Assembly (NCBI RefSeq): GCF_002289565.1
Contig: NZ_NTFY01000003.1
Span: 124,001-188,000, forward strand
Length of the DNA: 64,000 bases
From: Rhodopirellula sp. SM50
GTDB taxonomy: Bacteria > Planctomycetota > Planctomycetia > Pirellulales > Pirellulaceae
Direction of reading: 5' to 3'
Made by a program: the position numbers and the translations under genes
Shown: positions 29,004 to 53,348 of the stretch, in pieces
Numbering within the stretch: the stretch's first letter is position 1
Layout: every line of letters starts with the position of its first letter
The notes under the pieces: model-generated
What the model was told of the DNA's origin: nothing
Seen by the model: the letters and a program-made list of their open reading frames with translations, nothing else
The model's database searches: none

Positions 29004-30032
29004 ATGAACCCCTGCAAACAATCATTCCCCAGCAAAGCAACCGCACTGGTTTCGGTCGCGCTGTTCTCGATCGCACTGGTTTCGATCTCGTGGGCGGCGG
29101 TCGCCGATGCTTGCCAGGTCCCGGTGTTCCGCTACGCCTTGGAGCGTTGGCCGGCGGACAATTATGAGCTTGTCGTGTTGCACGACGGCCCGCTCGGCGA
29201 TGCCGAATCGAAGCTCGTCGAACACTTGCGGGCGTCCGATCATCAATCGTCGGTTTCAGCCAACTGCGGCGTCAGACTGATCGAAGCGGCCACGCTTCAA
29301 GACGAGCAGCTGAAATCGGCGTGGGCGAAACATGGCAAATCCGGCAAACCGGTTTTGGTGTCGCTGTATCCCGTGACGGCTCAAGAGGTCCCCGATCGCC
29401 TGATTGCCGCTGCGCCCTTGAACTCGGAGTCGGTCGGCAACCTGGTCGACTCCCCAATCCGACAGGAGATCGCAAAACGGTTGGTCGGGGGAGAGTCTGC
29501 CGTTTGGATCTTTGTGCCCTGTGGTGACCCCAAGCAAGACGAGGTCGCGCTGGGCAACTTGACACGCTTCGTTCAGCAAAACGAACAATCGTTGGAGTTG
29601 CCCGAACAGGAAGAGGTCGAGGACGAACAGGCATTGTTGGAGCAGTCGGCGATCGACCTGCGTTTGGATTTTTCGATCCTCACCCTCCGACGCGATGACC
29701 CCGCGGAGCAGTTTTTGTTGAAGATGCTGTTGGCCAGTGAGCCGGATCTGGAAGGACTCGATCAACCGATGGCGTTTCCGGTGCTGGGTAGGGGCCGTGT
29801 GCTGTACGCCCTGGTCGGCAAGGGAATCTCGGAATTGACGATCGGGTTGGCCTCGCGTTTCATCATCGGCCCCTGTTCCTGTCAGGTCAAAAATCAGAAC
29901 CCCGGTTTTGACCTGTTGATGGCTGTCGACTGGGAAAAGAAAATCGGTACGGCAAAGTTGAGCGACCCGTTGCCGGAGACGTCGGCCGCCCCGGTGCTGC
30001 TGACCATTCCGCCCGGACGAAACGCCAAGTAG
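29004..30032 (+). CDS. Secreted FRYALERW-family protein (unknown function)
   Basis: This 342-residue protein has a signal peptide ending in WAAVADA, directly before CQVPVFRYALERW. It shares that start with the gene at 41730. Other shared blocks are SAVWIFVP, AFPVLGRGRVLYAL, and the C-x-C element GPCSCQVKNQNPGFDLL with Cys291 and Cys293. No helix follows at the C-terminus, unlike its relative. Two bases separate it from the upstream propeller gene, and AAAGGA inside that gene serves as ribosome site. The tight link to the propeller suggests a periplasmic partner, perhaps thiol- or metal-related. Function is not known to me. Confidence 0.72.
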   Translation: MNPCKQSFPSKATALVSVALFSIALVSISWAAVADACQVPVFRYALERWPADNYELVVLHDGPLGDAESKLVEHLRASDHQSSVSANCGVRLIEAATLQDEQLKSAWAKHGKSGKPVLVSLYPVTAQEVPDRLIAAAPLNSESVGNLVDSPIRQEIAKRLVGGESAVWIFVPCGDPKQDEVALGNLTRFVQQNEQSLELPEQEEVEDEQALLEQSAIDLRLDFSILTLRRDDPAEQFLLKMLLASEPDLEGLDQPMAFPVLGRGRVLYALVGKGISELTIGLASRFIIGPCSCQVKNQNPGFDLLMAVDWEKKIGTAKLSDPLPETSAAPVLLTIPPGRNAK

Positions 30033-30431
30033 TCCGGTCGGACGCTGTGAAAGCGGCTCAGCCGATCGAGGATCGCCCCGTTCCCAGGCCCCCTCGTCGT
30101 GATTCTGCGATTTTTACCGTGCTTTCCGCGAAAAAGCGTTTCTCCGTCGCAGGGCGTCCCGCAGCTTCTAGCTGGCATTCAGCTTATCGGTTGACGAATT
30201 CTCGAGGCCCGGAGGGCCGGCAGAGTGTCTGCCGGCGGCGTGACGGCCTGTCGATTGAATCCGATCACGCATGGGATCAGCCGTTTCGCACGTCGATCAG
30301 CGACGGTCCCGATGCCGAATCTGCGTGGGAAGAGACCCCCGCGGGTCAACGGCGTGTCGATAAGGTATCATCAAAGTCTAATCCTATTGCCCGCCGGGAC
30401 CATTTATTTGATTCCACCAAGGTTGCTCTCC
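30033..30431. other. Intergenic region with palindrome
   Basis: No gene is visible in these 399 bases. A perfect 9-base inverted repeat with a 3-base loop lies at 30216-30236 (GCCGGCAGA and its complement). The promoter of the regulator gene downstream should lie in the 3' part, but no clear site was found. Confidence 0.5.
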
Positions 30432-31337
30432 ATGACCACCGTCCTGATCGTCGATGATTCCGCCGTCTGCCAGCGAGTCGCCGGCGCCTGTGTCCAAGCG
30501 GCTGGATGCGACGTCCGCTATGCCGCCGATGGATGTGAAGCCCTTGAATCGGTCAACACGGAAAAGCCCGACATCGTGTTGACGGACCTGCAGATGCCCA
30601 AGATGGACGGGTTGGAACTGGTCGAACGGCTTCGGGATGTGTATCCACAATTGCCGGTGATCCTGATGACGGGATTCGGCAGCGAAGAAGTGGCCGCCCG
30701 CGCGCTGCGGGCCGGGGCATCGAGTTATGTGCCCAAGGAGAACCTCAGCAAGGGACTCAGCGAAGCACTCCGAACCGTCATGTCGGTGGTGCATGCGATT
30801 CAGGAGCGGGAAAAGGTCTTGGCCTTCTTGGAGGAGAGCCAGTCCCGTTTCGTTTTGGGGTATGAACCCGGTGGGACCCAAGCGCTGGTCGGCTATCTGC
30901 ACGAACAACTGAAACTGCTGAACTATTTTGACGAATCGACATTGGTGCAACTGACCACTGCGCTCAGCGAATCGATCACCAACGCCATCGACCACGGCAA
31001 CCTGGAACTGGACTCTGACTTGCGTGAAGAGGACGACGGTTCCTATCGTGATCTCGGTGAAGAGCGGATTCAACAGCCACCGTATTGTGATCGGCGGGTG
31101 ACCGTGATGGCGACGTTGACACAGTCCGAGGTCAAGTTTGTCATCAGAGACGAGGGGCCAGGATTTGATCCGTCGTCGTTGCCCGATCCGACCGATCCGG
31201 AAAACCTGCTCAAGGCCAGTGGCCGCGGCATCATGTTGATTCGCACCTTCTTGGACGAAGTCACGTTCAGCGAAAAAGGCAACGAAGTCACCTTGATCAA
31301 ACGCCGCGATTCCATCGACGGCGAGGGGGAGAGCTGA
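30432..31337 (+). CDS. Response regulator fused to RsbW-type HATPase
   Basis: This 301-residue protein combines a receiver domain with a histidine-kinase-like ATPase domain. Receiver residues are Asp8/Asp9 (VLIVDDS), phosphorylation site Asp52 (TDLQMPKMDG), Thr80 and Lys102 (YVPKE). The ATPase part has an N box with Asn184 (SESITNAIDHGN), a G box from Asp240 (DEGPGFDP) and SGRGIMLIRT, which is the SpoIIAB/RsbW pattern. Such proteins often bind a sigma factor or anti-anti-sigma factor, here controlled by phosphorylation. No partner gene is adjacent. ATG 30432 begins the receiver directly. Confidence 0.85.
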   Translation: MTTVLIVDDSAVCQRVAGACVQAAGCDVRYAADGCEALESVNTEKPDIVLTDLQMPKMDGLELVERLRDVYPQLPVILMTGFGSEEVAARALRAGASSYVPKENLSKGLSEALRTVMSVVHAIQEREKVLAFLEESQSRFVLGYEPGGTQALVGYLHEQLKLLNYFDESTLVQLTTALSESITNAIDHGNLELDSDLREEDDGSYRDLGEERIQQPPYCDRRVTVMATLTQSEVKFVIRDEGPGFDPSSLPDPTDPENLLKASGRGIMLIRTFLDEVTFSEKGNEVTLIKRRDSIDGEGES

Positions 31338-31404
31338 GACAAGGAGATGGGGAGACAAGGAGATGGGGAGACAGGGAGACAGGGAGACAGGGAGACAGGG
31401 AGAT
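31336..31404. repeat. Purine-rich microsatellite
   Basis: Two 16-base units containing GAGACAAGGAGATGG are followed by four to five 8-base units (GGGAGACA). The array begins at the stop codon of the regulator gene and lies in the 178-base gap before the M23 peptidase gene. Confidence 0.8.
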
Positions 31405-31515
31405 TGGATACGCGGGGGAAGGGATTCGACTAGGATCTTGGTTTGACGATTTCAGCTTTCGCTGTGACCGAGCAAACCAACCGAGCAAACCACTCGCCCC
31501 GACTTCAGCATCAAC

Positions 31516-34209
31516 ATGATTTGGAACCACCGGAAACGCCATCACCCGATCCAGGTGCGTCCGATTGAACGACTCGAATCACGATCGTTGCTTTCGGCCG
31601 ATTTCGCTGCTCCGGTGGGCGATTTGCGGATCGAGCCGATCTCCGATCATGGCCATCACGAATCGGTCATCGCATCGGCCTTGTCCGGTGACGGGGATGT
31701 GCACACCGCTCACCGGCAGAGCGTCTTGCTCGGCGCGGAGGCTCCGCAGAACGCCTCGTCACCCAACCTGCGTCTGATCACCGGATACGTTCGTGACGGG
31801 CAGGGCAATCCGATCGCGGCGCCATTTTTGGGGCAGCGTCTGGCGATCCAAGTTCAATTCGAAACGACGGATCTGCCTGCCGGGGCGTCTTATGCGTTTC
31901 ACTTCACCGTCGATGGGGTGACGCTCGGCAGCGGAATCGTGACGACCGGCGCGGGGCAGTCGATCCACACCGGGTTTCGTTGGCGGGCCGGCTGGTTTGC
32001 CACGCCGGGCACCCACAACGTCGTCGTGACCGTCGACGCGTTTAACACCATTTTCGAAAGCGACGAAACGGACAACACGTTCAGTTTTAGCTTCACCACC
32101 GGCCAAGCGACGTTTGCCCAGCCGTTGATCTGGCCTGTGGAAGGCGCCCCCTACTCCAACCACGCCTTCCTAAATTACGTCGACGTCGATCCGACGACGG
32201 GAATCCGAGACTTTCGTGGTGGCAGTTATGCTTACGACGGCCACTCGGCGTGGGACATCGCCGTGCGGGGGTATGACGAGCAAGACGCCGGCATCGAAAT
32301 TTATGCCGCCGCCGACGGGGTGGTCATCGATACGCATGACGGCGAGTTTGATCGGCAAACCAATCTGGGGTCCACCTTCCCTCCGGTCAACTACGTCGTG
32401 GTCGATCATGGCGGCGGCTGGACGACCAGGTACGTTCACCTGCGCCGCGATTCGGTCCAAGTTGCCGTCGGCGACACGCTCTCCGCCGGAGACAAACTCG
32501 GCTACATGGCCAGTTCTGGTTGGTCCGATATCACGCATCTGCACTTCGCGTTGGAACATCACGGGTTCTCCGTCGAACCCTGGTACGATCCATCTGTCTT
32601 CCTGGACGCCTCGATCGCTTCGCTCCACTACATCGCCGAGAGCCAACATGTGCTCAGCAACGGGATTTCCAACGTCCCCGTGGCGGCGCATGTCCGCGAA
32701 GGCACCTCGCGGGTCAGCGTCTTTGAGCAGAAGTCGGGACAGCTCGTTTACACTTGGAATTGGTTTTCCGGTGTCGAACAGGGAGATGTGATTCACTTGG
32801 ATTGGCGGCGTCCCGACGGATCGGTGTTCTGGGTCAATGAAACCACGGCGGGAAATGATTGGGCACATCAATGGCGTTGGTTTTCTTATCGCTTTCCCAA
32901 CACGCCCGAATTGGGGACGTGGACCATCGATGTCCTCGTCAACGGAGTCAAACTCGCCGAACAATCCTTCGTCATTGCTCCCCAAGGAGTCCCCGAGGCT
33001 CGTGTCTTGCAAGGCGGCGCATTGATCGTTGATGACCGCGTCACTCCGATCGATTTCGGGACGGTCCCGCAATCGTCGTTCGCTCCATCTCAGAGCTTTA
33101 TCGTCGAAAATCACGGCGAAGCGGTTCTCAACATCGGCGACGTCTCGGTTCCGGCCGGCTACACCATCACCAACCCACTTCCGACCTCTTTGGCCGCCGG
33201 TCAGTCAGACACGCTGACGGTTCAACTCTCGACCACGACACCAGGTCACTTCGCCGGTCAGGTGCGAATTGCAACCGACGACGAGGACGAGGGCGTTTAT
33301 GAGTTCTCGGTTGAAGCAATCGTGACCTCCACCACGCAGCCACAGCAGTTGATTCTGGGCATCAATGAACGAAAAGAATCCGAGGGGTCGACGCTGTTTG
33401 GCAACGTCCGCCGCGGCGACCAGGGGGCGGGGACGTCGCAACCGTTGGTGGTGAACCTGGCTTCGGATTCTGCGTCGGTTTCGGTTCCCGACTCGGTCAC
33501 GATTCCGGCGGGCAGCGATCGCGTGATCTTCCCGATCGTGACCACCCCCGACGGCGTGATCACGGCTGATCGTGTCGTGCAGCTGTCGGCGACATCCGCG
33601 GTCACGCCGGCTGCCCACAATGAATTTCTGTTGATTGACGTACCGTTGCCACCGACGATCGCCGATGTCAGCGTCAATGCCGGAGATGCCTCTCGGTCGT
33701 CGCTCGATTCGGTGGCCGTCCGGTTTGATCAGGTCGTAAGCATCGATTCATCCGGCCCCGATCCGGCAGTTGAGATTGTCAATCCAGCCACGGATGCTTC
33801 GCTGCCGATTGGCGTGTCGGCATCGATCGTGGACGGCAAGACGGTTCTGGAAATCAGTTTCTCGAATCCCGCAGCGATCGCTGACGGCAACTACGTGCTG
33901 AACCTCAACGCCCAGTTGATCACGGCTTCCGGTCTTCCGCTGGACGGAAACCGAAATGGCGTCGTCGATGGAGAAGACGATTTTCAGTTCGGCGCCGAAA
34001 CGTCCGATGCGTTCTTCAAGTTCTATGGCGACACCGACGGCGATCGCGATGTCGATGGACAGGACTACGGTCGCTTCGGACTCAGTTTCTTGAAATCGAC
34101 CGGGCAGGCGGGTTTCGACCCCCGCCTAGACGCCGATTTCGATGGCGACGTGGACGGGCAGGACTACGGTCGATTCGGAATCCGGTTTCTAAGGACGTTG
34201 CCGGATTGA
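31516..34209 (+). CDS. Secreted M23 peptidase with CARDB-like and dockerin domains
   Basis: This 897-residue protein starts with the planctomycete motif RPIERLESRSLLSA (residues 15-28), a marker of surface or extracellular proteins. A CARDB-like beta domain follows (about 86-200), ending ETDNTFSFSF. The LytM/M23 zinc peptidase comes next: His243 and Asp247 in GHSAWDIA and His341-x-His343 in HLHF. It should cut peptide cross-links in cell wall or another protein. A DUF1573-like segment (about 511-560) precedes further beta domains. The C-terminus has two calcium-loop copies of a type I dockerin-like module, each containing DGQDYGRFG. All zinc-site residues are present, so it is probably active. 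Confidence 0.83.
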   Translation: MIWNHRKRHHPIQVRPIERLESRSLLSADFAAPVGDLRIEPISDHGHHESVIASALSGDGDVHTAHRQSVLLGAEAPQNASSPNLRLITGYVRDGQGNPIAAPFLGQRLAIQVQFETTDLPAGASYAFHFTVDGVTLGSGIVTTGAGQSIHTGFRWRAGWFATPGTHNVVVTVDAFNTIFESDETDNTFSFSFTTGQATFAQPLIWPVEGAPYSNHAFLNYVDVDPTTGIRDFRGGSYAYDGHSAWDIAVRGYDEQDAGIEIYAAADGVVIDTHDGEFDRQTNLGSTFPPVNYVVVDHGGGWTTRYVHLRRDSVQVAVGDTLSAGDKLGYMASSGWSDITHLHFALEHHGFSVEPWYDPSVFLDASIASLHYIAESQHVLSNGISNVPVAAHVREGTSRVSVFEQKSGQLVYTWNWFSGVEQGDVIHLDWRRPDGSVFWVNETTAGNDWAHQWRWFSYRFPNTPELGTWTIDVLVNGVKLAEQSFVIAPQGVPEARVLQGGALIVDDRVTPIDFGTVPQSSFAPSQSFIVENHGEAVLNIGDVSVPAGYTITNPLPTSLAAGQSDTLTVQLSTTTPGHFAGQVRIATDDEDEGVYEFSVEAIVTSTTQPQQLILGINERKESEGSTLFGNVRRGDQGAGTSQPLVVNLASDSASVSVPDSVTIPAGSDRVIFPIVTTPDGVITADRVVQLSATSAVTPAAHNEFLLIDVPLPPTIADVSVNAGDASRSSLDSVAVRFDQVVSIDSSGPDPAVEIVNPATDASLPIGVSASIVDGKTVLEISFSNPAAIADGNYVLNLNAQLITASGLPLDGNRNGVVDGEDDFQFGAETSDAFFKFYGDTDGDRDVDGQDYGRFGLSFLKSTGQAGFDPRLDADFDGDVDGQDYGRFGIRFLRTLPD

Positions 34210-34334
34210 CGCGTGGTGCACGGGGTTTTGTGGGGTTTTTTGAGTCCATTGTGACGCCGACGCACGTTCTTCACGGGAGTGCATCGGGTAGTCTGTTGGC
34301 GAGCAGATGGATCCAATCGCCAAACGTTGCAATC

Positions 34335-34412
34335 GCTCGCTTGCGCGTCCCGTTGGGGTCGGTCGCTTACGCGTCCCGTTGGTGCCGCTCGCTTACGCGT
34401 CCCGCTGGGGTG
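34335..34412. repeat. Three 26-base tandem repeats
   Basis: Three head-to-tail copies of a 26-base unit (core CGCTTACGCGTCCCG) at 34335-34360, 34361-34386 and 34387-34412. They differ at a few bases. They lie in the short gap before the VWA gene and end about 30 bases before its start. Confidence 0.85.
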
Positions 34413-34442
34413 TCTATTCTTCCTTCTCGTCCGAGGTGATTT

Positions 34443-35855
34443 GTGCCCGATCTTGTCACCGTTTCCAACGGCAAACGGTTCTTTCGTATTCCGACCGAAC
34501 AGCTTCCCAAGGCTCGTCGCGCGGGGTTCTACCGGCCGGCGGTTTTGAGTCGAACGATTGTGTCGGACGGGACACAGATCTTCGAGATCCCGATCAGCGA
34601 TCTCTCGGCGGCGTTGGCGGACGGGTTTCGTGACGTGCTGGCGATTGAACGACCGTCGATCGTTTGCGATCCCATCGACTCCCCCAGCGCGTCCACCGAC
34701 GAGCGCGGCAGCGGGGGGGCCGAGACGGCCACGACCGAAGCCGAATCAGAGGACATCTCCGCCTATCGCCGTGCGGAACTGGAGCAGCAGGCCTTGCACG
34801 AGCAGCTGCGAGCTGACGTCGACGCAGCCTCGTTGATTTGGACACCCGTTGCACTGATGCGGCTGTGGTGGTTCGAACGGCGTGAGGGATTGGTGGCGCA
34901 ATTCCGAACCAGCGGATTGAGCATCGCGCTGCATGTCGCGCTGTTGTTGCTGTTGTCGACCGTCTTCTTGGTCGAGGAGCAGATCGCCAAGCCGGACATC
35001 ATCACCGTTTCCACCGCCGTCGAAGATGCGATCGAAGAAGTCGTGATCGAGCAGGTCGAGTTGGAGGTGACCGAACCGGTTGACGAGGTGGTCGAAGAAG
35101 TCAGCGAGTCGATCGAAGTGCTGTCGGAAGTCACCGAACAATTTGTGTCGGTCGACTTGAGTGACTCCTTTGACGGCAATCTGCTCGCGGCGCCGGCGAG
35201 TTCCTCGGGTGATGGCGAGGCGATGGAAAAACCGGCCAAAGCCAAAGTGCAATTTTTCGGTTCAAAGACCGAGGCGATTGATTTTGTGTTCGTGATCGAT
35301 AATTCCAACAGCATGACGCAGGGGCGTTTCGAAACCGCCCTGAACGAACTGGTCAAAGCGGTCGACAAGCTCAACAAACGTCAAAAGTTCTACGTGATCT
35401 TCTACAGCGACACCGCCTATCCGCTCTTTCACCCCTACGCCCCGAAAACGCTGGTCCCCGCCACGCCCCAGAACAAGCAACTGCTGGTCAAGTGGTTGCA
35501 AACCGTACCGCTGTGTCTGAGAACCAACGGCAAAGAAGCGCTTCAGCTGGGGTTCAATCTCAACCCCGACATCATGTTCGTGCTCGGCGACGGAGCCTTC
35601 ACCGACGGAGCCTCCCGGTACTTCAGCGAGCGACCAAACAAGAAAGTGGTGGTTCACACCCTGGGGATGGAGGTCAGCGGAAAGAACGCGCAAACGTTCA
35701 AGCAACTTGCCGCCAAACATCGCGGCACCTACCAAGACGTCGGTGTTCATCCGCAAGCCGCACTGATCGCCAAACAGTTGCCTCGCCCACGACTGAAAAC
35801 CAGAAACGGGTACTGGGGATTAAAATTGCCGGCTAACAACAAAAAGATGCAGTAG
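34443..35855 (+). CDS. Membrane-anchored VWA-domain protein
   Basis: This 470-residue protein starts with GTG at 34443, supported by a GAGG site about 6 bases upstream. A single helix lies at about residues 158-178 (IALHVALLLLLSTVFLVEE), followed by an acidic Val/Glu-rich linker. A von Willebrand A domain with the metal site DNSNS (Asp286) in FVFVIDNSNSM comes after. The predicted topology puts the VWA domain outside the cytosol. The N-terminal 150 residues are of unknown type and include two IP-x-x-x-L repeats (FFRIPTEQLPKA and FEIPISDLSAAL). It lies 19 bases upstream of a TPR-like membrane protein, suggesting co-transcription. Confidence 0.78.
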   Translation: MPDLVTVSNGKRFFRIPTEQLPKARRAGFYRPAVLSRTIVSDGTQIFEIPISDLSAALADGFRDVLAIERPSIVCDPIDSPSASTDERGSGGAETATTEAESEDISAYRRAELEQQALHEQLRADVDAASLIWTPVALMRLWWFERREGLVAQFRTSGLSIALHVALLLLLSTVFLVEEQIAKPDIITVSTAVEDAIEEVVIEQVELEVTEPVDEVVEEVSESIEVLSEVTEQFVSVDLSDSFDGNLLAAPASSSGDGEAMEKPAKAKVQFFGSKTEAIDFVFVIDNSNSMTQGRFETALNELVKAVDKLNKRQKFYVIFYSDTAYPLFHPYAPKTLVPATPQNKQLLVKWLQTVPLCLRTNGKEALQLGFNLNPDIMFVLGDGAFTDGASRYFSERPNKKVVVHTLGMEVSGKNAQTFKQLAAKHRGTYQDVGVHPQAALIAKQLPRPRLKTRNGYWGLKLPANNKKMQ

Positions 35856-35874
35856 CTCCGAGTGTGGACGCCGA

Positions 35875-38400
35875 ATGACTGATCCCCCTTCCTGGCGCTC
35901 GCGTGCAAAATCTTTGTCGCCCGGACGCTCGGCCGAAAAGCAGGCTGCGAGGCCGGCCGAAAAGCAGGCTGCGAAGCCGAAACCCGAAAGCACGCCCGAA
36001 CCTCGCTCCGAACCTTCCGCAACCGACCAGTTGCCCGCCGGTTGGCAGACGCTCGACGCGACGACGGCCATGGAATTGCTGTCGACGAAAACCGGCCCCC
36101 AAGGCGATGCCGCCGACACCGATGCTACAGACGACCAGGCAACGTCGTTGCTGCGCCGACGCAGACGGTTTTCATGGGTGGAATGGACCGGAATAGCGGC
36201 CGTCTTGGGATTGCTGATCGCCGCGATGCTGATGTACCTGCGGCGACCCCAAGCCGAACAGTCCGCGGTCGACAACGCAGCGGTCCCCGCCGAAGCACCT
36301 GCACCGCCCGCCGTCGATGCCCCAACGGCACCCGACGACCGGGAGCAGTCCGCGCCGCCGGCCCCGGCCGCACAGTCGGCGGGCCCAGCGACGGCCAAGT
36401 CAATCGCTCAAGACGTCCTTGCCGACGCCGGTGACGGTTCGTTTGCGCTGCAGAGTTCTGGCGCCGTCGCAGAATCGAAAAAGCCTGTTGCTCGCCGGCC
36501 CGATTCAATCGTCGAAACTGCGCCCGGCCGTGAACCTTCGCCCTCCAAACCAACAAAAGCCTCGACGCGTTTTCCGCGCGCCCCCGCCCCCAACACGCTC
36601 ATCCCGCTCGATCGCAAACCGATCGAGCATGCTGCGGAAAAACCGATGCGGGCACCGCTCTCCTTGCCGCAGCGTTCTCCCGCATTCGTGTCCTTTGAAC
36701 GAGTCTATGCGGTCGCTTTCGAAACGCATCAAGATTATCTCGAACAGAAACGGTCGGCCCCATCAGCTCCCGAGACCGAAGCGCTGTTGGGTGAATGCAT
36801 CGTGTTGTTCGATCAGTGTCTCGGCCGACCGGCCGATGAATCGACGCTTGAACAACGCCATCAAATCGCATCGACACTCGCGGTCCTCTATTTCGACGCC
36901 GGTCACTTGTACGCCGCCGGCGTCTATGGGCTGCACGTGACCCGGTTCGCCGATCCGACGCAACCGGTCGCCACGGCATCCGCGACGCTCGCCTTTGCCG
37001 CCTTTCAAGAAGCACATCAAGTGCACTACACCGGTGCGGATCGCTCGGGTGATCTGCATCAGCTTGAGCATCTCTGTGACCTGATCGCAAGCCGCGGCAT
37101 CAAACACCCCCAGCTCGACACGATGCGTTTTGCGACCGCCCAGTTTTATCAGCGCGACGGATTCCATCTCGAGGCCGCGCAAACCTACCTCAAAATCCCC
37201 AAGCGTTCACCTCTCTACGCAAAGGCTCAGCTGGCCGCCGGCAGAGAGTTCTGGGCCGAGGCGGTGCGGCGCGACAACGAAGGGATCAACAAACAACGTG
37301 CCGCGATCATCAGCTGCGCGGCGAAATACCTGCGTGGCGCCATCGACCAGATCGATACCAACAGCGAGATCACGGCACCCGTATTGGCGGGGATGTTCTC
37401 GCTCGCCGAGATCTCATTGATGCGTGACGATCCACAGCAAGCGATTGCGTTGCTCGATGGAAAGCAAGGCGTTTTGGAACTGGCGAAGAAGGTGAAACTG
37501 TCGAAGGAATTCATCACCGCTGCCGAGGAATGTCTGTTTCAGGCCTATTCGCAATCCGGCGATGTGGAGGGCATCCAGTCGTCGATCGCGGCCTTGTCAA
37601 AACGGTACGGCCCTCGTGGCAAGGAGCGGATCGCAAGCCTGCAAACGAAAGTCGCAAGAGAATTTGTGGACAACCTGGATCCCGATCAACCGCTGTCGGC
37701 CGTTGAAACCGAACAGCTTGAGACGCTGATGCGATCGATTCTCGATCCCAAGCGTAGCCCCTCGACCAACGTGATCCTGTGGGCCGCAGAAACCTGGTCC
37801 GATCTGGCAACTCGCGCGAGTGATCAAGACGTCGTGATGCGATGTCGCCGGCGGGCGGACGAATTGCTTAGCCGCGCGTACGAATCAGACGAGCTAACGG
37901 CGGCAGAAAAAATGACGCTGCATTTGAAACGGGTCGACCTGGCGCAGCAAGCCGGAGACGCCGGGCGAACGATCTCGCTGTTGTCCGAGACTTTGCGTCA
38001 ATCGCCGGCCGCAATCGACCTGCAGATCAAGGCGGCCGAAGTGCTGACTGAAAACGCCAGGGCGACCGGGGACGCCGACCGTTTCGCCGAAGCAATCGAA
38101 GGCCGCCGTGACGATGCAATTTGGGGCTGGGCGAAACTGACCAACACGCTGGCGAGAATGCACTTTGACAGCGAAGACAAAACGCGATACCTCGATCGAC
38201 TGCTGCTGTCCGGTTTTCACCTCAACGAAAGTCGCATCCTTCAGGCCCGATCGACGACGTCCCCGGACGAGCGTCAACGGTTGCTGCAGATGTCGAAAAA
38301 GCATCTGCGACAGTTGATCGTAACGTTTGCCCAATCGTCGGAGGATTGGATGAAGAAACTTCAAACGCTTCAAGCGATGATCGATCAAATCGAGCAATAG
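35875..38400 (+). CDS. TPR-like membrane protein of unknown function
   Basis: This 841-residue protein has a basic, low-complexity N-terminus containing a duplicated AEKQAA(R/K)P repeat, one transmembrane helix (about residues 100-122, WTGIAAVLGLLIAAMLMYL) and an Ala/Pro-rich linker. A long C-terminal region rich in helical pairs resembles TPR repeats, for example GRTISLLSETLRQSPAAIDL. No catalytic motif is seen. It follows the VWA gene closely, so the pair probably acts together at the envelope. A hairpin after its stop could be the terminator of this unit. Confidence 0.65.
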   Translation: MTDPPSWRSRAKSLSPGRSAEKQAARPAEKQAAKPKPESTPEPRSEPSATDQLPAGWQTLDATTAMELLSTKTGPQGDAADTDATDDQATSLLRRRRRFSWVEWTGIAAVLGLLIAAMLMYLRRPQAEQSAVDNAAVPAEAPAPPAVDAPTAPDDREQSAPPAPAAQSAGPATAKSIAQDVLADAGDGSFALQSSGAVAESKKPVARRPDSIVETAPGREPSPSKPTKASTRFPRAPAPNTLIPLDRKPIEHAAEKPMRAPLSLPQRSPAFVSFERVYAVAFETHQDYLEQKRSAPSAPETEALLGECIVLFDQCLGRPADESTLEQRHQIASTLAVLYFDAGHLYAAGVYGLHVTRFADPTQPVATASATLAFAAFQEAHQVHYTGADRSGDLHQLEHLCDLIASRGIKHPQLDTMRFATAQFYQRDGFHLEAAQTYLKIPKRSPLYAKAQLAAGREFWAEAVRRDNEGINKQRAAIISCAAKYLRGAIDQIDTNSEITAPVLAGMFSLAEISLMRDDPQQAIALLDGKQGVLELAKKVKLSKEFITAAEECLFQAYSQSGDVEGIQSSIAALSKRYGPRGKERIASLQTKVAREFVDNLDPDQPLSAVETEQLETLMRSILDPKRSPSTNVILWAAETWSDLATRASDQDVVMRCRRRADELLSRAYESDELTAAEKMTLHLKRVDLAQQAGDAGRTISLLSETLRQSPAAIDLQIKAAEVLTENARATGDADRFAEAIEGRRDDAIWGWAKLTNTLARMHFDSEDKTRYLDRLLLSGFHLNESRILQARSTTSPDERQRLLQMSKKHLRQLIVTFAQSSEDWMKKLQTLQAMIDQIEQ

Positions 38401-38445
38401 CACGTACGGCAGTCGCCGGGGTGTGGAAATTTGGCAGAACGATAC

Positions 38446-38482
38446 GGGGCAGAATCATGTCGGCCTGAAATCATTCTGCCCC
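38446..38482 (+). terminator. Possible factor-independent terminator
   Basis: GGGGCAGAAT (38446-38455) pairs with ATTCTGCCCC (38473-38482) around a loop of about 17 bases, followed by TTCTTTTC. It lies 46 bases after the stop of the TPR-like gene. The same ATTCTGCC core also occurs near 21050, so it may instead be a dispersed repeat. Confidence 0.5.
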
Positions 38483-38631
38483 TTCTTTTCAGGAGATCGG
38501 AACACTGCAACTTTGTGAAAAAGACACTCAGCGACGGCCCCACTCCTGAACATTGATGTTCGAATCTGCCGGGACACGGTTCGGCTATACTGTTGGCTGC
38601 CAGAGCCCAGTCCCCCGCCGCAGGGTTGAAC

Positions 38632-41600
38632 ATGAGACACCGAGTCACGAACATCACGTCCGCAACCCTTCTCATTGTCCTTGCGCTAAGCAGTGCAGCG
38701 GAATGCCCGGCCGAGGACGCGACCCAGTTTGACCCAGCCGCCGCCGCCAATCTACAGGGTGGTTTGATCGTTCAGCTGGGTGGTCAAAACACCGATGCCG
38801 CCGCCCGGCTCAGTCGAACGGGGCGTTACCTGATTCACGTGCTGGATGCCGACGCTCAGGTCACCCGGTCCGCACAGCAACGGTTGCGAGAGCAGGGGAA
38901 CTACGGCTTGGCTTGGGCCGAACACGTGCGCGATCCACAGCGGCTTCCCTACGCTGAAAACGTGGTGAACCTGATCGTCGTTGACGGTTACTGTGTCCCC
39001 GCGACGGAACTGCTGCGCGTCTTGGCTCCTGGCGGGTCGGTCGTCGTTGTCAACGAAAGCGTGGTCGAACAAATCAACTTGGACGCACCAGGATTTTCCC
39101 AGACGCGCGATGTGGGCGCCGCCCGTGTCGTTCGAAAGCGTTGGCCGTCCGAAATGGACATCTGGTCTCACTCGCGTCATGATGCCGACGGGAATGCCGT
39201 TTCGCTGGATACCGCCGTCGGCCCCCCGCAACGCGTGCGTTGGATTGCCGCCGCGACGTCGGAAGTCGAAGGCATGGTGACCGCCGGCGGTCGCAACTTT
39301 TACGGCGGTGTTTTGGCGCGTGACAGCTTCAACGGGTTACGTCTCTGGCACCGCGACTTGAACAAAGACGGCGTCAACAATCCCGACACGTTTAGCCTGC
39401 CAAGACTCGCCGGCGATGGCTCCCGACCGGTTGCGTCGGATCGGCGACTGTTTGCCAAATTGAAAGACAGGTTGGTGGCGATCGATGCGGCGACCGGCGA
39501 AGTATCGGTCGAGCTTGCGGAAATGAAGTCGCCCCGAGCGTTTTTGTTTGATGGCGTCCGCGTGATTGCCGCCGATGACAAAACGGTACGCGCGTTCGAC
39601 GTTGAAAATGGGGCGGAGCTATGGCGGGTTGAGTCGGCCGAACCGCGTCACGTGGTCGCCGATGGCCAGCGTGTCGCGCTCGTTCAGGGTCGGATCAAAC
39701 GTGGCGAAAAAGCGGTCGCGGTTGTGTTGGACGCCGAGTCGGGGGAGACGACCTGGACACGAGATGATTTTTCCTGGCTCGGTGAAACGACGCGTACCGT
39801 GCTCGCCAAGGGGCTGCTGGTCTTCGAAGTGTCGACGTTGAACGACCACGATGCCGGCAATGGAATTCATGTCGTCTCTGCAGACGCCGGCGAGCACCGT
39901 TGGTCGAAAGAGTATCCGCCGGGGATGAACCATGCACGGCAGGCGCGGGCGATGTTCTTGGACAACGACATCTGGATTCTGCATGGGGGAAAATCAAACA
40001 CGACCGACAAAGACAATCTGATTCGATCCAAACCGCAAGTCTCCGCGCTCGATCCCAAGACCGGCGAAGTGCGTGTGAGCTATCCGGCGGGGCTGGCCCA
40101 TTGTTTTCCGCCAGTCGCCACGCCCAACTATTTGTTTGCCGGCGAGTTGGACATGACCGACCTGAGTTCCGGCGAAGTCATCGCGAACCGAATCACGAAG
40201 GCGAATTGTTCGCGCGACAGCGGTTGGATTCCGGCCAACGGGCTGATCTACACCACGCCCAAGCACTGCACCTGCTGGCCGATGTTACGCGGATTTGTGG
40301 CGATGGCCAAAGCACCCGGTCGTGAGAGTGACGCCAACCGTCCGCTGGCGGAGATCGAATTCGTACTCGAACAGGGGCCGGCGGAGATCGACCCGGATGC
40401 GGCAGAAATCGGTCCGAACGACTGGCCGCTGTACCGTCACGACCGCTGGCGCAGCTCGAGCACCGGCGGATCGGGTCCCGACGGGTTGAGTCAAAAGTGG
40501 GCGGCTGTTTTGTCCGCTGACTTGATCGCCGATGCAAAAATCACCGGGCCGATCATGCACGACTGGAACGAAAATCCGGTCGTCAAAGGCCCGCTGAGTG
40601 CCCCGACGATCGCCGGCGGAACCGCCTTCGTGACGCGGTCCAATGCCCATGAATTGATCGCGGTGGACACTCAATCGGGATCGGTTCGGTGGAGATTCAC
40701 CGCCAATGGTCGACTCGACACGCCGCCGGCGATTCACCGCGGGCTGTGCCTGTTCGGGACGGCCGCGGGTTGGGTGTACGCGGTCCGCGCCGACACCGGC
40801 GAACTGGTCTGGCGGATGCGCGCCGCCCCCAATGACGAGCGAATCATCGCCTACGGTCAAGTCGAATCGCCTTGGCCCGTTCCCGGCGCCATCCTGGTCA
40901 TGGATGGCATCGCGTACTTTGCAGCCGGCCGACAACCCTTGGCCGATGGCGGCATCCTGGTTTTCGCCGTCGATCCGATGACCGGCAAACGCCACTGGGT
41001 CAAACGCATCGACAGCGTTCCACAAAAAGGTTTCTACGAAAATTCCGGTTTGGAATTTGATCCTTTTGATCTCCTGCATGCAGAAGGCGACAAGTTGGCG
41101 ATGTCGCGTTGGATCTTATCACTCGATGGCAAGGACGTTGACGTCGACAAGTGGAACGCGTTCGCCAAGCTGAACACCGGCAAGGGGGACGTTTGGGTTC
41201 CGCGCGGCAGTTGGACCTACGGCGCGCGGCATCAACATCGCTTCCGTGGTGAAGCACCACGACGACCGCTGACTGTTTTCAAGGACGACAAAGTTTTTAG
41301 CTCACTCGACGGCAGCACGGACGTGTTCCGCCGCGATTTCAGCGCCGCAGACGTTCAATCCTTCAACAGCAAGTGGATCACCGGATGGGAAGCCGGCAAG
41401 TTGGCGCGCGAAGGCGGAAAACCCTATCGAAACCAACGCGTTTCCACCAACTCGGCCTGGGTTCACGATCCCTTTGCCGATCCAGAGGAGATCAAGGAGG
41501 AACCCGAATACGGAACTCAACTGCACAACGAGATCTACGCGATGGCGTTGTCCGGCGATGAAAAACTCTACGTCGTGCACCGGGACGGTCGTTTAAAAGT

Positions 41601-41733
41601 CCTGTCGACCGAAACCGGTTACGTCATCAAAGAATCAAAGGTGCCGCCGCCGGCCTGGGACGGTTTGGCCATCGCCGATGAACGCCTCTTTCTGACCACG
41701 CAGGACGGAAAACTGATCTGTCTGGGAGACTAG
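38632..41733 (+). CDS. Secreted PQQ-like propeller protein with Rossmann segment
   Basis: This 1033-residue protein has a signal peptide ending ECPAED. A Rossmann-like segment follows (about residues 42-142), ending ELLRVLAPGGSVVVVNESV, which matches the late core of a methyltransferase without clear SAM-binding loop. The remainder is a PQQ-like propeller: LVAIDAATGEVSVEL, SGSVRWRFTANGR, ESPWPVPGAILVMDGIAYFA. The shared motif is Cys526, PANG and Cys546-x-Cys548 in KHCTCWP. It is close to the gene at 50223 in length and layout. ATG 38632 is chosen over the upstream in-frame TTG at 38593. The stop codon shares the bases CTAG with the convergent gene. Confidence 0.82.
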   Translation: MRHRVTNITSATLLIVLALSSAAECPAEDATQFDPAAAANLQGGLIVQLGGQNTDAAARLSRTGRYLIHVLDADAQVTRSAQQRLREQGNYGLAWAEHVRDPQRLPYAENVVNLIVVDGYCVPATELLRVLAPGGSVVVVNESVVEQINLDAPGFSQTRDVGAARVVRKRWPSEMDIWSHSRHDADGNAVSLDTAVGPPQRVRWIAAATSEVEGMVTAGGRNFYGGVLARDSFNGLRLWHRDLNKDGVNNPDTFSLPRLAGDGSRPVASDRRLFAKLKDRLVAIDAATGEVSVELAEMKSPRAFLFDGVRVIAADDKTVRAFDVENGAELWRVESAEPRHVVADGQRVALVQGRIKRGEKAVAVVLDAESGETTWTRDDFSWLGETTRTVLAKGLLVFEVSTLNDHDAGNGIHVVSADAGEHRWSKEYPPGMNHARQARAMFLDNDIWILHGGKSNTTDKDNLIRSKPQVSALDPKTGEVRVSYPAGLAHCFPPVATPNYLFAGELDMTDLSSGEVIANRITKANCSRDSGWIPANGLIYTTPKHCTCWPMLRGFVAMAKAPGRESDANRPLAEIEFVLEQGPAEIDPDAAEIGPNDWPLYRHDRWRSSSTGGSGPDGLSQKWAAVLSADLIADAKITGPIMHDWNENPVVKGPLSAPTIAGGTAFVTRSNAHELIAVDTQSGSVRWRFTANGRLDTPPAIHRGLCLFGTAAGWVYAVRADTGELVWRMRAAPNDERIIAYGQVESPWPVPGAILVMDGIAYFAAGRQPLADGGILVFAVDPMTGKRHWVKRIDSVPQKGFYENSGLEFDPFDLLHAEGDKLAMSRWILSLDGKDVDVDKWNAFAKLNTGKGDVWVPRGSWTYGARHQHRFRGEAPRRPLTVFKDDKVFSSLDGSTDVFRRDFSAADVQSFNSKWITGWEAGKLAREGGKPYRNQRVSTNSAWVHDPFADPEEIKEEPEYGTQLHNEIYAMALSGDEKLYVVHRDGRLKVLSTETGYVIKESKVPPPAWDGLAIADERLFLTTQDGKLICLGD

Positions 41734-42896
41734 TGCTTCAACCCTGCCCTCATTCCCATCCGCAGCTTCATCGTGAACGCCAACGCTCCGAGTGCCATCA
41801 CGACGAGCACCCAGATTTTGCCATCATCTTGATCTCCATCGGCAGCCGCATCGGTCGCGGTCGACTCCTGTGTTCCGGGTTTGCCGACAGGAATCGCCAA
41901 CTCCAGTGGCTCACCCGAGTCCGCCGATTCGACCATCACGATTTGATCGCCGAGGGTCTGTTGCCAATCGGTTCTTAAGATCAGGTCGACGCCCGGGTTG
42001 AGCGCCTTGACGCTGCAGCTGCACTCGCCGACCAGATAGCGGCACGCCGCGATGATCGAACCGGCGTCAAAGTCTGCAGCGGGCAGGGGTTCGATCATTC
42101 GTCCGCGGCCGAACACCGGAAACACGAACGGGGCCTCGACCGTTTCGGTCCAGCCATCGACCATCGCGCGAAAGGCGAATTCGTTTTCATCGTCGTGTCG
42201 AAGTCGCTCGATCGTGAATTTGATTGAGAGCGGGATGTCACAGCGCAGCACGTCATCCATCGACGCCGCCGGGTGGTCCTGCAAATACTGCGCGGCATCT
42301 TCTCGTCGAATCACGCCCTCGGGAATGGCGATCGCGGCGGTCGCGTCCCGGAGTGCAGCTTGCAGGTCCGCCCGCAGCGCGTCGTTTTGTGATTCGTCGG
42401 GGCCCTCGACCAAGACCCAGACGGCGGAAGCACCGGTTTGGATTTCCCGAATGATGTTCTTGCGAAGCGGAGACTCGATCCAGGCGTTGAGATTCGCGGA
42501 TGTCAGAGCGCCGCTCCAACAGAGCGCTGGTTGACCGTCACGTTCGGGATAAAAGACCTGCAGCAGCGGCGTTTGCTCGGTGCTTTCCAATCCCTCGACC
42601 GACCAGAGTTCGGCTTCGGAGAGGGTAGCCAAATCAACGACTCGCGTGGTCACGTTGACGCTTGGTTCGGCGAGAGACCGCAGTGCGGCGAGCGCGCCTG
42701 CCGCATCGCCGGTCGGTTCACCGTCGATCAACGCCACGATTTCATACGTGTCGGCCGGCCATCGTTCGAGCGCGTAGCGAAACACGGGAACCTTGCACGC
42801 GTTCGCGGTAGTGGCCAATAACAGGGTGACGACGACGCATAAAGTGCGTCGATCGAAAGATCGGCTCAAGGCTAGACACCAACGACTGGCGTTCAT
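41730..42896 (-). CDS. FRYALERW-family protein with C-terminal helix
   Basis: This 388-residue protein is related to that at 29004. A signal peptide (RTLCVVVTLLLATTANA) is followed by CKVPVFRYALERW. The shared blocks SAVWVLVEG, FVFPVFGRGRMIEPL and GECSCSVKALNPGVDLI (Cys292, Cys294) are present. A C-terminal transmembrane helix (WVLVVMALGALAFTMKL) with a basic tail anchors it, which its relative lacks. The start at ATG 42896 overlaps the stop of the propeller gene upstream by four bases, so translation is probably coupled. It is the last gene of a three-gene reverse operon. Confidence 0.75.
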   Translation of the reverse strand: MNASRWCLALSRSFDRRTLCVVVTLLLATTANACKVPVFRYALERWPADTYEIVALIDGEPTGDAAGALAALRSLAEPSVNVTTRVVDLATLSEAELWSVEGLESTEQTPLLQVFYPERDGQPALCWSGALTSANLNAWIESPLRKNIIREIQTGASAVWVLVEGPDESQNDALRADLQAALRDATAAIAIPEGVIRREDAAQYLQDHPAASMDDVLRCDIPLSIKFTIERLRHDDENEFAFRAMVDGWTETVEAPFVFPVFGRGRMIEPLPAADFDAGSIIAACRYLVGECSCSVKALNPGVDLILRTDWQQTLGDQIVMVESADSGEPLELAIPVGKPGTQESTATDAAADGDQDDGKIWVLVVMALGALAFTMKLRMGMRAGLKH

Positions 42897-44272
42897 CGTT
42901 GCGGTCCGAAGGCGTAGATGTGGCCGAGTCCGGTGCTGACGAGCAGTCGGCCGTCGGCGACCGCCAGTCCGTGTGCAACGCCATCGACCTCGGCCGACCA
43001 CTTCAGCGTGCCGTCGTCGGCGTCATAGGCACGGACTTCGTTTTCCAGTCCGACAACGATCGAGTCGGCGGTCTTGATGAACCCGGTCGGGCTGGGGCAC
43101 TCGACCTCCCACCGCCAGGCCTCCGTCTGTTGCTTGATCGCCTGGGCCAGCTCCGCTTTTGCGGCCGCCTTGGCTTGCTCGTCGGTATTTTTTTTGTCAT
43201 TGATGATCCCGTTGGCCTTGGTCGCGGCGACTTGTGCGGCGACATAGCTGGATCGGTTCAGCATCTTGAGTTTTCCCGCGGTCGGAATCCAGGCGCGTTC
43301 TCCGGCGACCAGGATGCGATTGGTGCCGCTGAAAGTCGCCAGACGTTGTCGGCTGCGCGCATCGGCCAATCGCATTTGATCGCTGGACGACTTTTGATCT
43401 TGCGGGCCGGCCAACAGCATTTCGTCTTCGGTCAGCACGCAGAACACGCCACCGGCTTCACCGATCGCACCGAGGGGACTGCCGTCGGCCATCTCAAACG
43501 CCAACGGCGCCGCCCGGCCTTGGGGCACATAGATCCGCTCCGACGACGCCAGCAACGCTCCTTGCATGGTGACGCCTTGAACGTCCTTGCGGAAGCATCG
43601 ATCGCCGTCCAACGCCCCCGTCTTGGCGTCGACCTTGCACAGGTAAGAGGCCTTCCACGGAACCAGCGACGCGCCGAACAACGCGGTGCCGTCTTGGACG
43701 AGCACACCGGTGCGCACCGGCCACATCGAAATCAGCTTGCGATTGCTCGCCACCTGTTTCCGCTCCGGCGCGGCCTGCTTTTTCCAAATCAATTCGCCCG
43801 AGCTCTGGTCACAACAATAGACGAAGCCGTCATCGGAACCGAAGTAGGCCCGACCGTCGGACAAGGTGGGAGGAAATCGGACGGCGGAGCCGGTGAAAAA
43901 CACCCAGTGTTCTTTGCCCGTCACGGCGTCCAACGCGTGCACGGCATCGTCGACCGACGAACCGAAAAAGACTTGGCCGCCATCGACCGTCACGAAGAAG
44001 CAGGGGTCGAAGTTGCGCATCGATTGCAGGCCGCTGTTGCCTGAATAGGCGTCCCACTTTGCAGGCCCCGTCCACGCGGTTTGCGGAGGCTGCTCCGAGA
44101 CACGCCCCCAGAGCGGTTGCATGGGGAACGTCAGGCTCGCGTCGGTGACGCCGCTGCGACGGGCATCGTGACGATACGTCGGCCAGGATTGGGCGCACGC
44201 TTTGGAGCCAACGCCGACAACTTGGCTGCCGATGCAGCCCAACAGGACGATGACGGTTCGAAGTTGGATCAT
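42893..44272 (-). CDS. Secreted PQQ-like propeller protein, N-half type
   Basis: This 459-residue protein has a signal peptide ending SKACAQSW. It resembles the N-terminal half of the protein at 25105: both have a WP-x-Y start with A-R-x-G (WPTYRHDARRSG), LDAVTGKEHWVF, YFGSDDGFVYCC and ISMWPVRTGVLVQDGTALFG. It lacks the Cys/C-x-C motif of the other propellers, which lies in the half it does not have. ATG 44272 overlaps the stop of the upstream gene. It probably forms a complex with that gene's product and with the downstream FRYALERW protein. Confidence 0.8.
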   Translation of the reverse strand: MIQLRTVIVLLGCIGSQVVGVGSKACAQSWPTYRHDARRSGVTDASLTFPMQPLWGRVSEQPPQTAWTGPAKWDAYSGNSGLQSMRNFDPCFFVTVDGGQVFFGSSVDDAVHALDAVTGKEHWVFFTGSAVRFPPTLSDGRAYFGSDDGFVYCCDQSSGELIWKKQAAPERKQVASNRKLISMWPVRTGVLVQDGTALFGASLVPWKASYLCKVDAKTGALDGDRCFRKDVQGVTMQGALLASSERIYVPQGRAAPLAFEMADGSPLGAIGEAGGVFCVLTEDEMLLAGPQDQKSSSDQMRLADARSRQRLATFSGTNRILVAGERAWIPTAGKLKMLNRSSYVAAQVAATKANGIINDKKNTDEQAKAAAKAELAQAIKQQTEAWRWEVECPSPTGFIKTADSIVVGLENEVRAYDADDGTLKWSAEVDGVAHGLAVADGRLLVSTGLGHIYAFGPQR

Positions 44273-53200: not shown

Positions 53201-53348
53201 CAAAATCAATCGCGACGACGATTCCGCCACTGAACTTGAATTGTTCAACGAAGCCATCTTCCGCGTGCAGCCTAGACGGCAACAGTCCGATCAGGCAGAG
53301 GACTGCGGCGATCCGTCCGACGAGAGATCGATAGTTGTTCATTCGCAT
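50223..53348 (-). CDS. Secreted PQQ-like propeller protein with Rossmann segment
   Basis: This 1041-residue protein has a signal peptide ending SRLHAED. A Rossmann-like segment lies at about residues 40-139 (ELMRVLVPGGRLVVQG), then WNQFLHGADNNGVSLDDVGP and propeller repeats (VYCLRASDGQLVWTF, ESAWPVHGSIMMFDDTAYFA). The shared motif is Cys545, PANG and Cys563-x-Cys565 (VCQC). It parallels the protein at 38632. ATG 53342 is an alternative start. It stands alone in the reverse direction between the oxidoreductase gene and the PDZ gene. Confidence 0.82.
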   Translation of the reverse strand: MRMNNYRSLVGRIAAVLCLIGLLPSRLHAEDGFVEQFKFSGGIVVAIDFEDGESIANLATDEPFVIHALLREPERVAAARQVIQQAGLYGKVSCELYNGRDLPYVDGLVNLVLCKDSSEVPEAELMRVLVPGGRLVVQGADGWKKRAKPVPDGLDQWNQFLHGADNNGVSLDDVGPPQRLRWHDTPEYGRSKSLSPSLTNMVSADGVLLTIEDRATTEDINASLDYQLVARDGFNGIELWKRPMEQWSKWQTGSIKSIPTQQQRCLAAVGKSVYVCSGFGDPVTAYSIRTGAVRQVYPHTKRATEFAIDGQTLYVIKGTPYKLPKAAATAGRAELCAVDLKAGGERWTRAVADEYTGGTFAVHGPHLVYHSTGGVTCLDAVSGDVLWTEPVPIKTAPPVTKEAGRALRRGKKPSDSALFSANVHPTLVLTDEMVFCAIHDTMTAKRLSDGKTLWSAPAGKNYMKSTEIFVADGLVWSRDLNGRDPKTGKVVRTLAQEMTGPMSHDRCYRNRITHRYYLNSASGGSDFVKLDGMAETPNPWARSTCGLAVMPANGMLYNGPYVCQCAIGAMATGVNGFYNGCDNADRRFNVSIEPRLVKGPAFGTVKGPAASADDWPTYRYSNSRSGITSGRTPDELVAKWNVDLGSHPTAPVVAGDNVYVADRDGYTLYSLHREDGTIGWSFIADGRIDSPPTYHNGLVLVGSRGGSVYCLRASDGQLVWTFNGMPQRRLICDTGRLESAWPVHGSIMMFDDTAYFAAGRNTFLDGGIAVFGLDPVSGEMKQGRIMQGPYQDDVRSFPVQARGQFQLEGCKADIFSCAADQLFMRNQAFSPDLEPVATERVKTLHLMASPGFLNESPQHRTYWTVDRDLRYGGAMGKFGAGPAGDTIAFDGKLFYEVRGYAPGRNLPGRGRGLDPLDLYSVYSGSYGGMGEKEDKSAIPAMGTWQQRWTTPTPFAGHAIAASENTVMAAGVPLLKDYSAEQTNASYAGRNGGIAWLLDAADGRPLQELRFDAAPVWDGIAIAHNSFFVCLKDGSVVCLSAK

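Follow-up and report, generated by a model that had tools for sequence, protein, structure and literature searches.

The window examined here, a 64,000-nucleotide stretch of the Rhodopirellula sp. SM50 genome (contig NZ_NTFY01000003.1, positions 124,001 to 188,000), carries two genes of a protein family that we refer to as FRYALERW, or FRY, each beside genes for a giant double-propeller partner, which we refer to as PROP. FRY copy 1 (29004-30032, plus strand) translates to 342 amino acids, with a cysteine at position 37 and a C291-x-C293 pair, and it ends without a C-terminal anchor; its AlphaFold2 (AF2) model covers residues 37-333. FRY copy 2 (41730-42896, minus strand) has 388 amino acids when read from the ATG at 42896, with C34, a C292-x-C294 pair, and a C-terminal hydrophobic segment at residues 360-378 (best 19-residue mean 1.82, versus 0.56 in copy 1). 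The open reading frame (ORF) list gives copy 2 as 423 amino acids from an upstream GTG; the 388-residue form fits the numbering of a first-pass annotation of this DNA. The two products are 32% identical over 328 columns, and since BLASTP returns E = 6e-47, their similarity is not due to chance. A third copy elsewhere in the genome (contig C35, 85285-86256) brings the total to three. Labels of the form L### and G### identify loci and genomes within the collections we searched, and C35 is a contig of the window's own genome.

The first-pass annotation had recognized both genes, without giving the strand of copy 2, from motifs that we were able to locate in full. The first cysteine precedes VPVFRYALERWPAD (as C37-Q in copy 1 and C34-K in copy 2), and the proteins carry SAVWI or SAVWV, FPVLGRGR or FPVFGRGR (copies 1 and 2, respectively), and a C-S-C element at 291-293 or 292-294. 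The anchor assigned to one product only is present as described, and so is the tight spacing to the propeller genes: copy 1 starts 2 bases past the stop of a 1298-amino-acid propeller gene, and the ATG of copy 2 overlaps by 4 bases with the stop of the propeller ORF upstream of it.

The PROP of copy 1 (25105-29001, plus strand) is a double PQQ-type propeller with matches to the Pfam families PQQ_2, PQQ, and Methyltransf_25. The PROP of copy 2 is split between two minus-strand ORFs, an arrangement also found in L175. The ORF at 42893-44398 (PQQ_2 1.4e-17; PROP profile 310 bits) matches the first half of the single-gene propeller, and by inspection its likelier start is an ATG at 44272, which overlaps by 4 bases with the preceding gene. 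The ORF at 44269-46407 (PQQ_2 3.1e-15; PROP profile 251 bits) has domains matching the second half, and its product has a weak phosphatase-N-like region followed by a propeller with a cysteine and GGCSCGG. Between the two propellers of the single-gene PROP, at about residues 502-596, lies a methyltransferase-like domain (Methyltransf_25 2.3e-6) whose glycine motif looks intact, in a signal-sequence protein, a setting in which one would not expect S-adenosylmethionine.

With its signal sequence, FRY still fits the earlier description of an uncharacterized secreted protein. Searches of Pfam and NCBIfam up to E = 1 gave nothing above cut-off, and the one domain listed, DUF2474 (E 0.042), falls on copy 2's membrane segment; in PDB, neither a single sequence nor a profile of 45 sequences had a sequence match at E<=10. 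We found no mention of "FRYALERW" and no description of the gene system below in the open-access literature, where only open-licence papers were searchable. A single-sequence search, which scored the best few candidates per genome, placed FRY in 53 of 392 sampled genomes of the phylum; a profile gave four more weak matches among 21 re-searched FRY-negative genomes. Scanning a collection with a single genome for each species yielded 520 confirmed FRY stretches among 542, of which we kept the best 80, a choice that favors close kin of copy 1. By their record titles, these 80 come from Planctomycetota, Verrucomicrobiota, Kiritimatiellae, Omnitrophota, Sumerlaeota, Hydrogenedentota, and Latescibacterota, with two metagenome-assembled genomes labeled Deltaproteobacteria and Acidithiobacillales, and the nearest relatives among them are from Stieleria sedimenti (96%) and TBK1r (97%). 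No plasmid relative matched a single FRY sequence at 1e-5, and none of nine pattern matches on viral contigs was a relative, phage records, PHROGs, and PADLOC lying outside that search.

Within the family, the conserved cysteines comprise one at the N terminus and a C-x-C pair late in the protein. In the 45-sequence alignment (mature numbering), P4, V5, W13, S114, R117, G226, C255, C257, K260, G265, D267, and W274 are invariant, and C1 is kept in at least 90% of rows. Both C1 and the CxC pattern occur in 116 of the 124 de-duplicated members. Of the other eight, some are partial ORFs, some escaped the strict pattern, and one (L074) has Thr in place of C1. We considered whether the first cysteine might be lipid-anchored and set this aside: a lipobox ([LVI][ASTVIG][GAS]C) occurs in only 6 of 120 N termini, an A-x-A-type pattern fits 80 of 120, and in one locus (L057) the FRY cysteine sits within a fused protein. 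Judging from these sequences, the first cysteine does not make most FRY members lipoproteins. A C-terminal helix was tied to one particular neighbor. The tail could be scored in 121 of the 124 members, and the helix is present in all 51 that have an FtsX gene within three genes and in 32 of the 70 that do not (p 3e-12). Copy 2 has the helix and no FtsX nearby, while copy 1 has no helix.

For mature copy 1, AF2 gave a mean predicted local distance difference test score (pLDDT) of 90.5 and a predicted template modeling score of 0.88; domain 1 modeled alone has a pLDDT of 88.0. By DSSP, the order of elements in the domain 1 models is helix-strand-helix-strand-helix-strand-strand-helix-helix, which is the thioredoxin order minus its first strand. 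Both predicted domains place a proline before the equivalent of the fourth strand (mature position 80 in 39 of 45 rows, 219 in 41 of 45), so by prediction FRY shows the helix and strand order and the proline of a thioredoxin fold. The CxxC active site of thioredoxin and PDI oxidoreductases is absent from both domains: its place, as assigned from predicted strands, is taken in domain 1 by HxGxL (H in 30, G in 31, and L in 37 of 45 rows) and in domain 2 by ESGD (E in 27, S in 29, G in 34, and D in 26 of 45 rows). Foldseek returned no PDB match at E<=0.001 (0 of 671 for the whole model, 0 of 1065 for domain 1), and the top 50 listed were mostly thioredoxin folds, with probabilities up to 0.99 and TM by target up to 0.65 for the whole model and 0.56 for domain 1. 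The first-ranked match for domain 1 was KaiB, a thioredoxin-like protein. FRY thus probably consists, by its models, of two degenerate tandem thioredoxin-like domains without CxxC. The first-pass annotation had suggested looking for a thioredoxin-like fold around the first cysteine; the fold is probable, but since that cysteine lies ahead of the first helix and CxxC is gone from its usual place, it is no thioredoxin active site. A divergent relative beside FtsX and LolD genes (L182:9318-10118), shorter, with a CAISQFAL start and no CxC, was alone among ten proteins scanned in showing similarity to Thioredoxin_6 (E 0.004; PDIA6_C E 0.016, both below cut-off), and it may represent a bridge between FRY and ordinary thioredoxins. 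Its PDB sequence search gave only two unrelated weak matches.

We compared gene order at the window and 134 further loci, placing FRY ORFs first (138 FRY ORFs, 124 after de-duplication at 90% identity). Partners were identified at one locus (L034) with Pfam and NCBIfam and traced elsewhere with profiles built here. They comprise PROP, an FtsX/MacB-like permease, a LolD-like ATPase, a tandem ModA-like binding protein, ModB-like and ModC-like proteins, a ThiS/MoaD-like carrier ending in GG, and an E1-like protein of the MoeB/ThiF kind. PROP directly precedes FRY on the same strand, or is fused to it, at 39 of 124 loci, and FtsX directly follows FRY at 49. Anywhere on the locus, we found PROP at 68, FtsX at 54, and any Mod, ThiS, or E1 gene at 44, with at least one system gene at 108. 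The scan pattern requires the FRYALERW segment, so we also give the rates separately. For the genome sample plus the window (n = 50), PROP was upstream or fused in 10 and on the locus in 23, FtsX was downstream in 23 and on the locus in 27, any Mod, ThiS, or E1 gene was present in 28, and 5 had no partner. The corresponding figures for the best-80 scan (n = 74) were 29 and 45 for PROP, 26 and 27 for FtsX, 16 for any Mod, ThiS, or E1 gene, and 11 without a partner.

The first-pass annotation had staked the propeller link on homologues not lying mostly away from propellers, and this was borne out only in part, an immediately upstream or fused propeller being the minority case. Even so, in 500 shuffles of gene order within loci, PROP-upstream adjacency averaged 7.8 (max 17), compared to 38 observed; one natural PROP-FRY fusion exists (L057); and the two genes pair at the genome level even when unlinked. 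The link is therefore real, but it is only part of a larger system. FtsX-downstream adjacency likewise averaged 5.7 in the shuffles (max 14), compared to 49 observed. The fullest operons run FRY, FtsX, LolD, tandem ModA, ModB, ModC, ThiS, and E1 (L034, L122, L128, L148), and another row reads PROP, FRY, FtsX, LolD, ModA, ModB (L132). The earlier proposal of a two- or three-part system is too small, because L148 adds PROP, on the other strand, to the eight-gene order, giving a gene set of up to nine.

These partnerships were rearranged many times and kept: when 119 FRY sequences are placed on a tree, at least 9 of the 14 changes required by the PROP-adjacent label are forced by supported branches, as are at least 11 of the 23 required by the FtsX label (loci with both PROP and FtsX were counted as FtsX). 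Copy 2 is on a long branch whose position in the tree is uncertain. The third copy of the window's own genome lies in a fuller setting: the C35 locus holds PROP, FRY, a tandem ModA gene, and a ModC-bearing ORF, with E1, ThiS, and E1 on the opposite strand. ModB was not seen there by our ORF picking.

Co-occurrence across genomes extends these associations beyond physical linkage. A ModA-like protein (E<=1e-20) is encoded in 50 of 53 FRY-positive and 29 of 339 FRY-negative genomes (Fisher 1e-38), and a full-length tandem form in 37 of 53 and 10 of 339, respectively. We retrieved loci from seven of those ten tandem-ModA, FRY-negative genomes (L175-L181) and found that six hold a diverged FRY beside FtsX (L175, L176, L177, L178, L179, L181), with C-(R/K/E)-Y-(T/C)-(I/V)-R-(D/E) after the signal plus C-E-C; the L180 locus ends at the contig end. 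Together with L189, this diverged set aligns with FRY by profile (98.4%, E 4e-15), CxC on CxC. For PROP, AOR, MoaA, and MoaE, we used 80 genomes hand-picked from the 392 (40 of the 53 FRY-positive, 40 FRY-negative), some of the negatives being chosen for ModA-like matches, which works against the PROP result. Of the 40 FRY-positive genomes, 32 have PROP (E<=1e-60), as do 4 of the 40 FRY-negative ones (G030, G196, G342, G346), and all four of the latter are among the ten with a tandem ModA-like protein. This strict threshold misses eight FRY-positive genomes, including G284, whose FRY locus has PROP by profile. In G299, a PROP 51% identical to that of the window lies about 1.1 Mb from FRY, so the PROP-FRY link is not only physical. 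Besides PROP itself, no neighbor recurs in all twelve unlinked PROP loci; the six Gimesia-like ones (L204-L207, L212, L213) share neighbors, with PROP followed by two short genes whose products have about 266-294 and 224-265 amino acids.

At L034, we scored the partners against specific family models. The binding protein exceeds the ModA cut-off (TIGR01256, 114.8 bits versus 62.5) in two stretches. The importer permease and ATPase fall under the equivalog cut-offs for ModB (TIGR02141, 140.4 of 182.6) and ModC (TIGR02142, 170.2 of 285.05); the best model for this ATPase is WtpC, also below cut-off (215.1 versus 440), as are the MoaD-like and MoeB-like matches. The other permease matches FtsX and MacB_PCD domains, and the pair scores under the cut-offs for LolC/E (36.1 of 362.45) and LolD (217.8 of 307.75).

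Several partners have conserved cysteines of their own. The two cysteines of the FtsX-like permease CxC are kept in 59 of 59 and 58 of 59 sequences, between hydrophobic segments centered near residues 30 and 309, and the motif was in the inspected slice of 54 of 58 FtsX-labeled ORFs, two of the four misses being weak FtsX matches. Conserved positions of the tandem ModA-like protein are C95 (45 of 51), C361 (49 of 51), and C380 (49 of 51). C361, in the second pocket, aligns with the conserved S126 of domain 1, which in turn aligns with a Ser of ModA that has a ligand role, and C380 aligns with A145 of the first domain. In propellers near FRY, C1035, C1073, C1093, and C1095 of PROP are each conserved in 50 of 55, and C150 (51 of 55) and C762 (47 of 55) are conserved as well.

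We conclude that FRY and its partner genes very probably form one functional unit; the gene set is well supported at the sequence level. What the unit does is a more tentative matter. With a confidence that falls somewhat short of even, we propose an ATP-driven periplasmic thiolate relay that would load a metal or metal-sulfur ligand onto PROP, mainly because cysteines are found on several proteins expected to face the periplasm. The ModA-like/ModBC module would take up an oxyanion or related metal species, the E1/ThiS pair would supply activated sulfur on the cytoplasmic side, and the FtsX-LolD pair would perform ATP-driven mechanical work on the periplasmic side. FRY would hold the ligand on its three thiols, anchored by its C-terminal helix where FtsX adjoins and soluble in many members otherwise, and would pass it to the cysteines of PROP, which may be the working enzyme or a binding protein. 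The ligand would most likely be a metal or metal-sulfur species: the combination of Mod-like import with ThiS/E1 sulfur favors metal-sulfur, and the replacement of a pocket cysteine by His in variant ModA-like proteins favors a metal. A narrower version, in which a pterin-free metal-sulfur site, or a single thiolate-bound metal, is built from imported oxyanion and ThiS/E1 sulfur and installed in PROP by FtsX-LolD and FRY, seems to us on the doubtful side.

Several observations weigh against the relay. Both FRY copies in the window adjoin propellers, and none of the set's transporter genes accompanies them; the genome has only generic FtsX matches (E 3e-7 to 2e-5) in ORFs without CxC, so FtsX and LolD would be dispensable or replaced there. 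No partner was found at 16 of 124 loci, eight of these having less than 1.6 kb on one side, and ThiS and E1 are on only 25 and 24 of the 124, respectively. Spacing of the FtsX cysteines is C-x2-C in L176 and C-x3-C in L076, and the FRY-like variant of L182 lacks CxC while its neighboring FtsX keeps it. Variant ModA-like proteins without the two pocket cysteines have mostly Ser (also Gly, Ala, or Thr) at one and mostly His or Gly at the other; C95 is kept in every copy in which the position aligned. Such variants, at L184-L188, occur in genomes with FRY. Conserved cysteines also occur in ModB membrane segments, in zinc-type pairs of E1, and at C150 and C762 of PROP, none of which the relay needs; because ModB and E1 have their own, conserved cysteines alone do not prove a relay.

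Other explanations account for parts of the same evidence. FRY might be a PDI-like chaperone or oxidoreductase that makes or mends the disulfides of the cysteine-bearing propellers, working without metal and paired in redox with the FtsX CxC, and both the C-x-C pairs in FRY, FtsX, and PROP and the predominance of PDI-family tandem thioredoxin folds among the Foldseek neighbors are consistent with this. However, FRY has lost CxxC in both domains, and a purely thiol-disulfide role leaves the association with ModA-like/ModBC, ThiS, and E1 unexplained; we regard it as unlikely. The same association bears on export of the LolCDE or MacB type, in which FtsX-LolD with FRY as adaptor would release or export PROP or a peptide, and ModA-like genes would be frequent but unrelated neighbors. 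The LolD-like ATPase, the FtsX and MacB_PCD domains, and a FRY anchor that tracks FtsX all suit an exporter, yet the scores lie below the LolD and LolCE cut-offs, the CxC has no explanation, and FRY and the ModA-like protein go together over the 392 genomes, which leads us to consider export quite improbable. Less probable still is the idea that FRY is only a structural propeller partner at the cell surface, its shared neighborhoods reflecting inheritance and not common work. In Pirellulaceae, FRY copies do adjoin propellers at loci whose fetched stretch holds no transporter genes, but the repeated changes of the PROP-adjacent label on the tree, and co-occurrence that includes unlinked genes, argue against inheritance alone, and we rank this last.

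The Mod, ThiS, and E1 genes could alternatively supply an ordinary Mo- or W-pterin cofactor, with FRY and PROP as bystanders. A ModA profile above cut-off, WtpC as the best ATPase model and MoaD- and MoeB-like neighbors (these below cut-off), and the presence of MoaA or MoaE in 38 of 40 FRY-positive genomes point in this direction. On the other hand, AOR shows no association with FRY (5 of 40 FRY-positive versus 8 of 40 FRY-negative genomes, p 0.55), the ModB and ModC matches fall short of their specific cut-offs, and FRY, the FtsX loop, and PROP would be on the opposite side of the membrane. MoaE is missing from 4 and MoaA from 3 of the 40 FRY-positive genomes, compared to 7 and 2 of the 40 FRY-negative ones, in drafts that may be incomplete. 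Two FRY-positive genomes, G284 (96% complete) and G290 (84%), have neither gene, which weakens the case for ordinary molybdopterin supply and because of which the FRY system probably does not depend on molybdopterin synthesis. We place this explanation between export and the structural role, as very unlikely. AOR, or a tungsten enzyme, was also considered as the client and rejected on the same AOR counts, there being none in the window's genome. PMC13197769 concerns a pterin tungsten cofactor.

The window contains further propeller genes. The 1046-amino-acid product at 38593-41733 (plus strand) scores 298 bits against the PROP profile, versus 1578 for 25105-29001; its gene is convergent with FRY copy 2, overlapping the end of copy 2 by 4 bases, and it is a paralogue from the wider propeller family and probably not a FRY partner. 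Its HC...C...CTC pattern resembles that of PROP, and the cysteine pattern may therefore belong to the wider family. Another paralogue of 1041 amino acids lies at 50223-53348 (PROP profile 253 bits). Following FRY copy 1 is a response regulator joined to an HATPase_c_2 domain (30225-31337); at 31516-34209, the window encodes a large protein with Peptidase_M23, CARDB, and DUF1573 domains.

On the narrower and doubtful version of the relay, PROP would represent a new class of extracytoplasmic metalloenzyme across Planctomycetota, Verrucomicrobiota, and several candidate phyla. A metal or metal-sulfur ligand would imply an undescribed route to cofactor insertion outside the cytoplasm and would give the giant planctomycete propeller proteins a testable chemistry. 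Even if our guess at the ligand is wrong, the gene set, the cysteines, and the natural fusion are direct targets for experiment. The 520 stretches encode a family unnamed by Pfam or NCBIfam, and FRY marks a conserved gene set and is not an orphan.

Any novelty, judged against open-licence papers, lies in the ensemble; each part alone is related to a known kind. The Foldseek neighbors of FRY are mostly PDI-family tandem proteins (PDI, Mpd1p, a QSOX1 fragment, Wind, calsequestrin), from which it differs in having no match at E 0.001, no CxxC, conserved cysteines outside the classical site, and its FRYALERW segment and C-x-C tail. PROP shares PQQ-type propeller repeats with BamB and PQQ-dependent dehydrogenases, but it lies far under the cut-offs for BamB (90.5 versus 285.2) and PQQ alcohol dehydrogenase (70.3 versus 480.05) and has an embedded methyltransferase-like domain and conserved cysteines. 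Each of the importer's three components (binding protein, permease, and ATPase) finds its matches among models of the ModABC/WtpABC/TupABC superfamily; the tandem ModA-like domains, the cysteine at the second-domain serine position, and a permease and ATPase below the specific cut-offs set it apart. Similarly, the FtsX C-terminal domain, MacB-like periplasmic domain, and LolD-like ATPase recall LolCDE, MacB, and FtsEX, from which the second transporter differs in its conserved C-x-C, its FRY company, and its scores below equivalog cut-offs. As a works-like analogy only, the system may be compared with copper-site assembly for N2O reductase by NosDFY and NosL, in which an ABC pair and a periplasmic protein mature an extracytoplasmic propeller enzyme. 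The FRY system departs from it in having a permease of the FtsX/MacB type and not ABC-2 (NosY), a Mod-like importer, a ThiS/E1 pair, and, in FRY itself, a putative thioredoxin-like protein.

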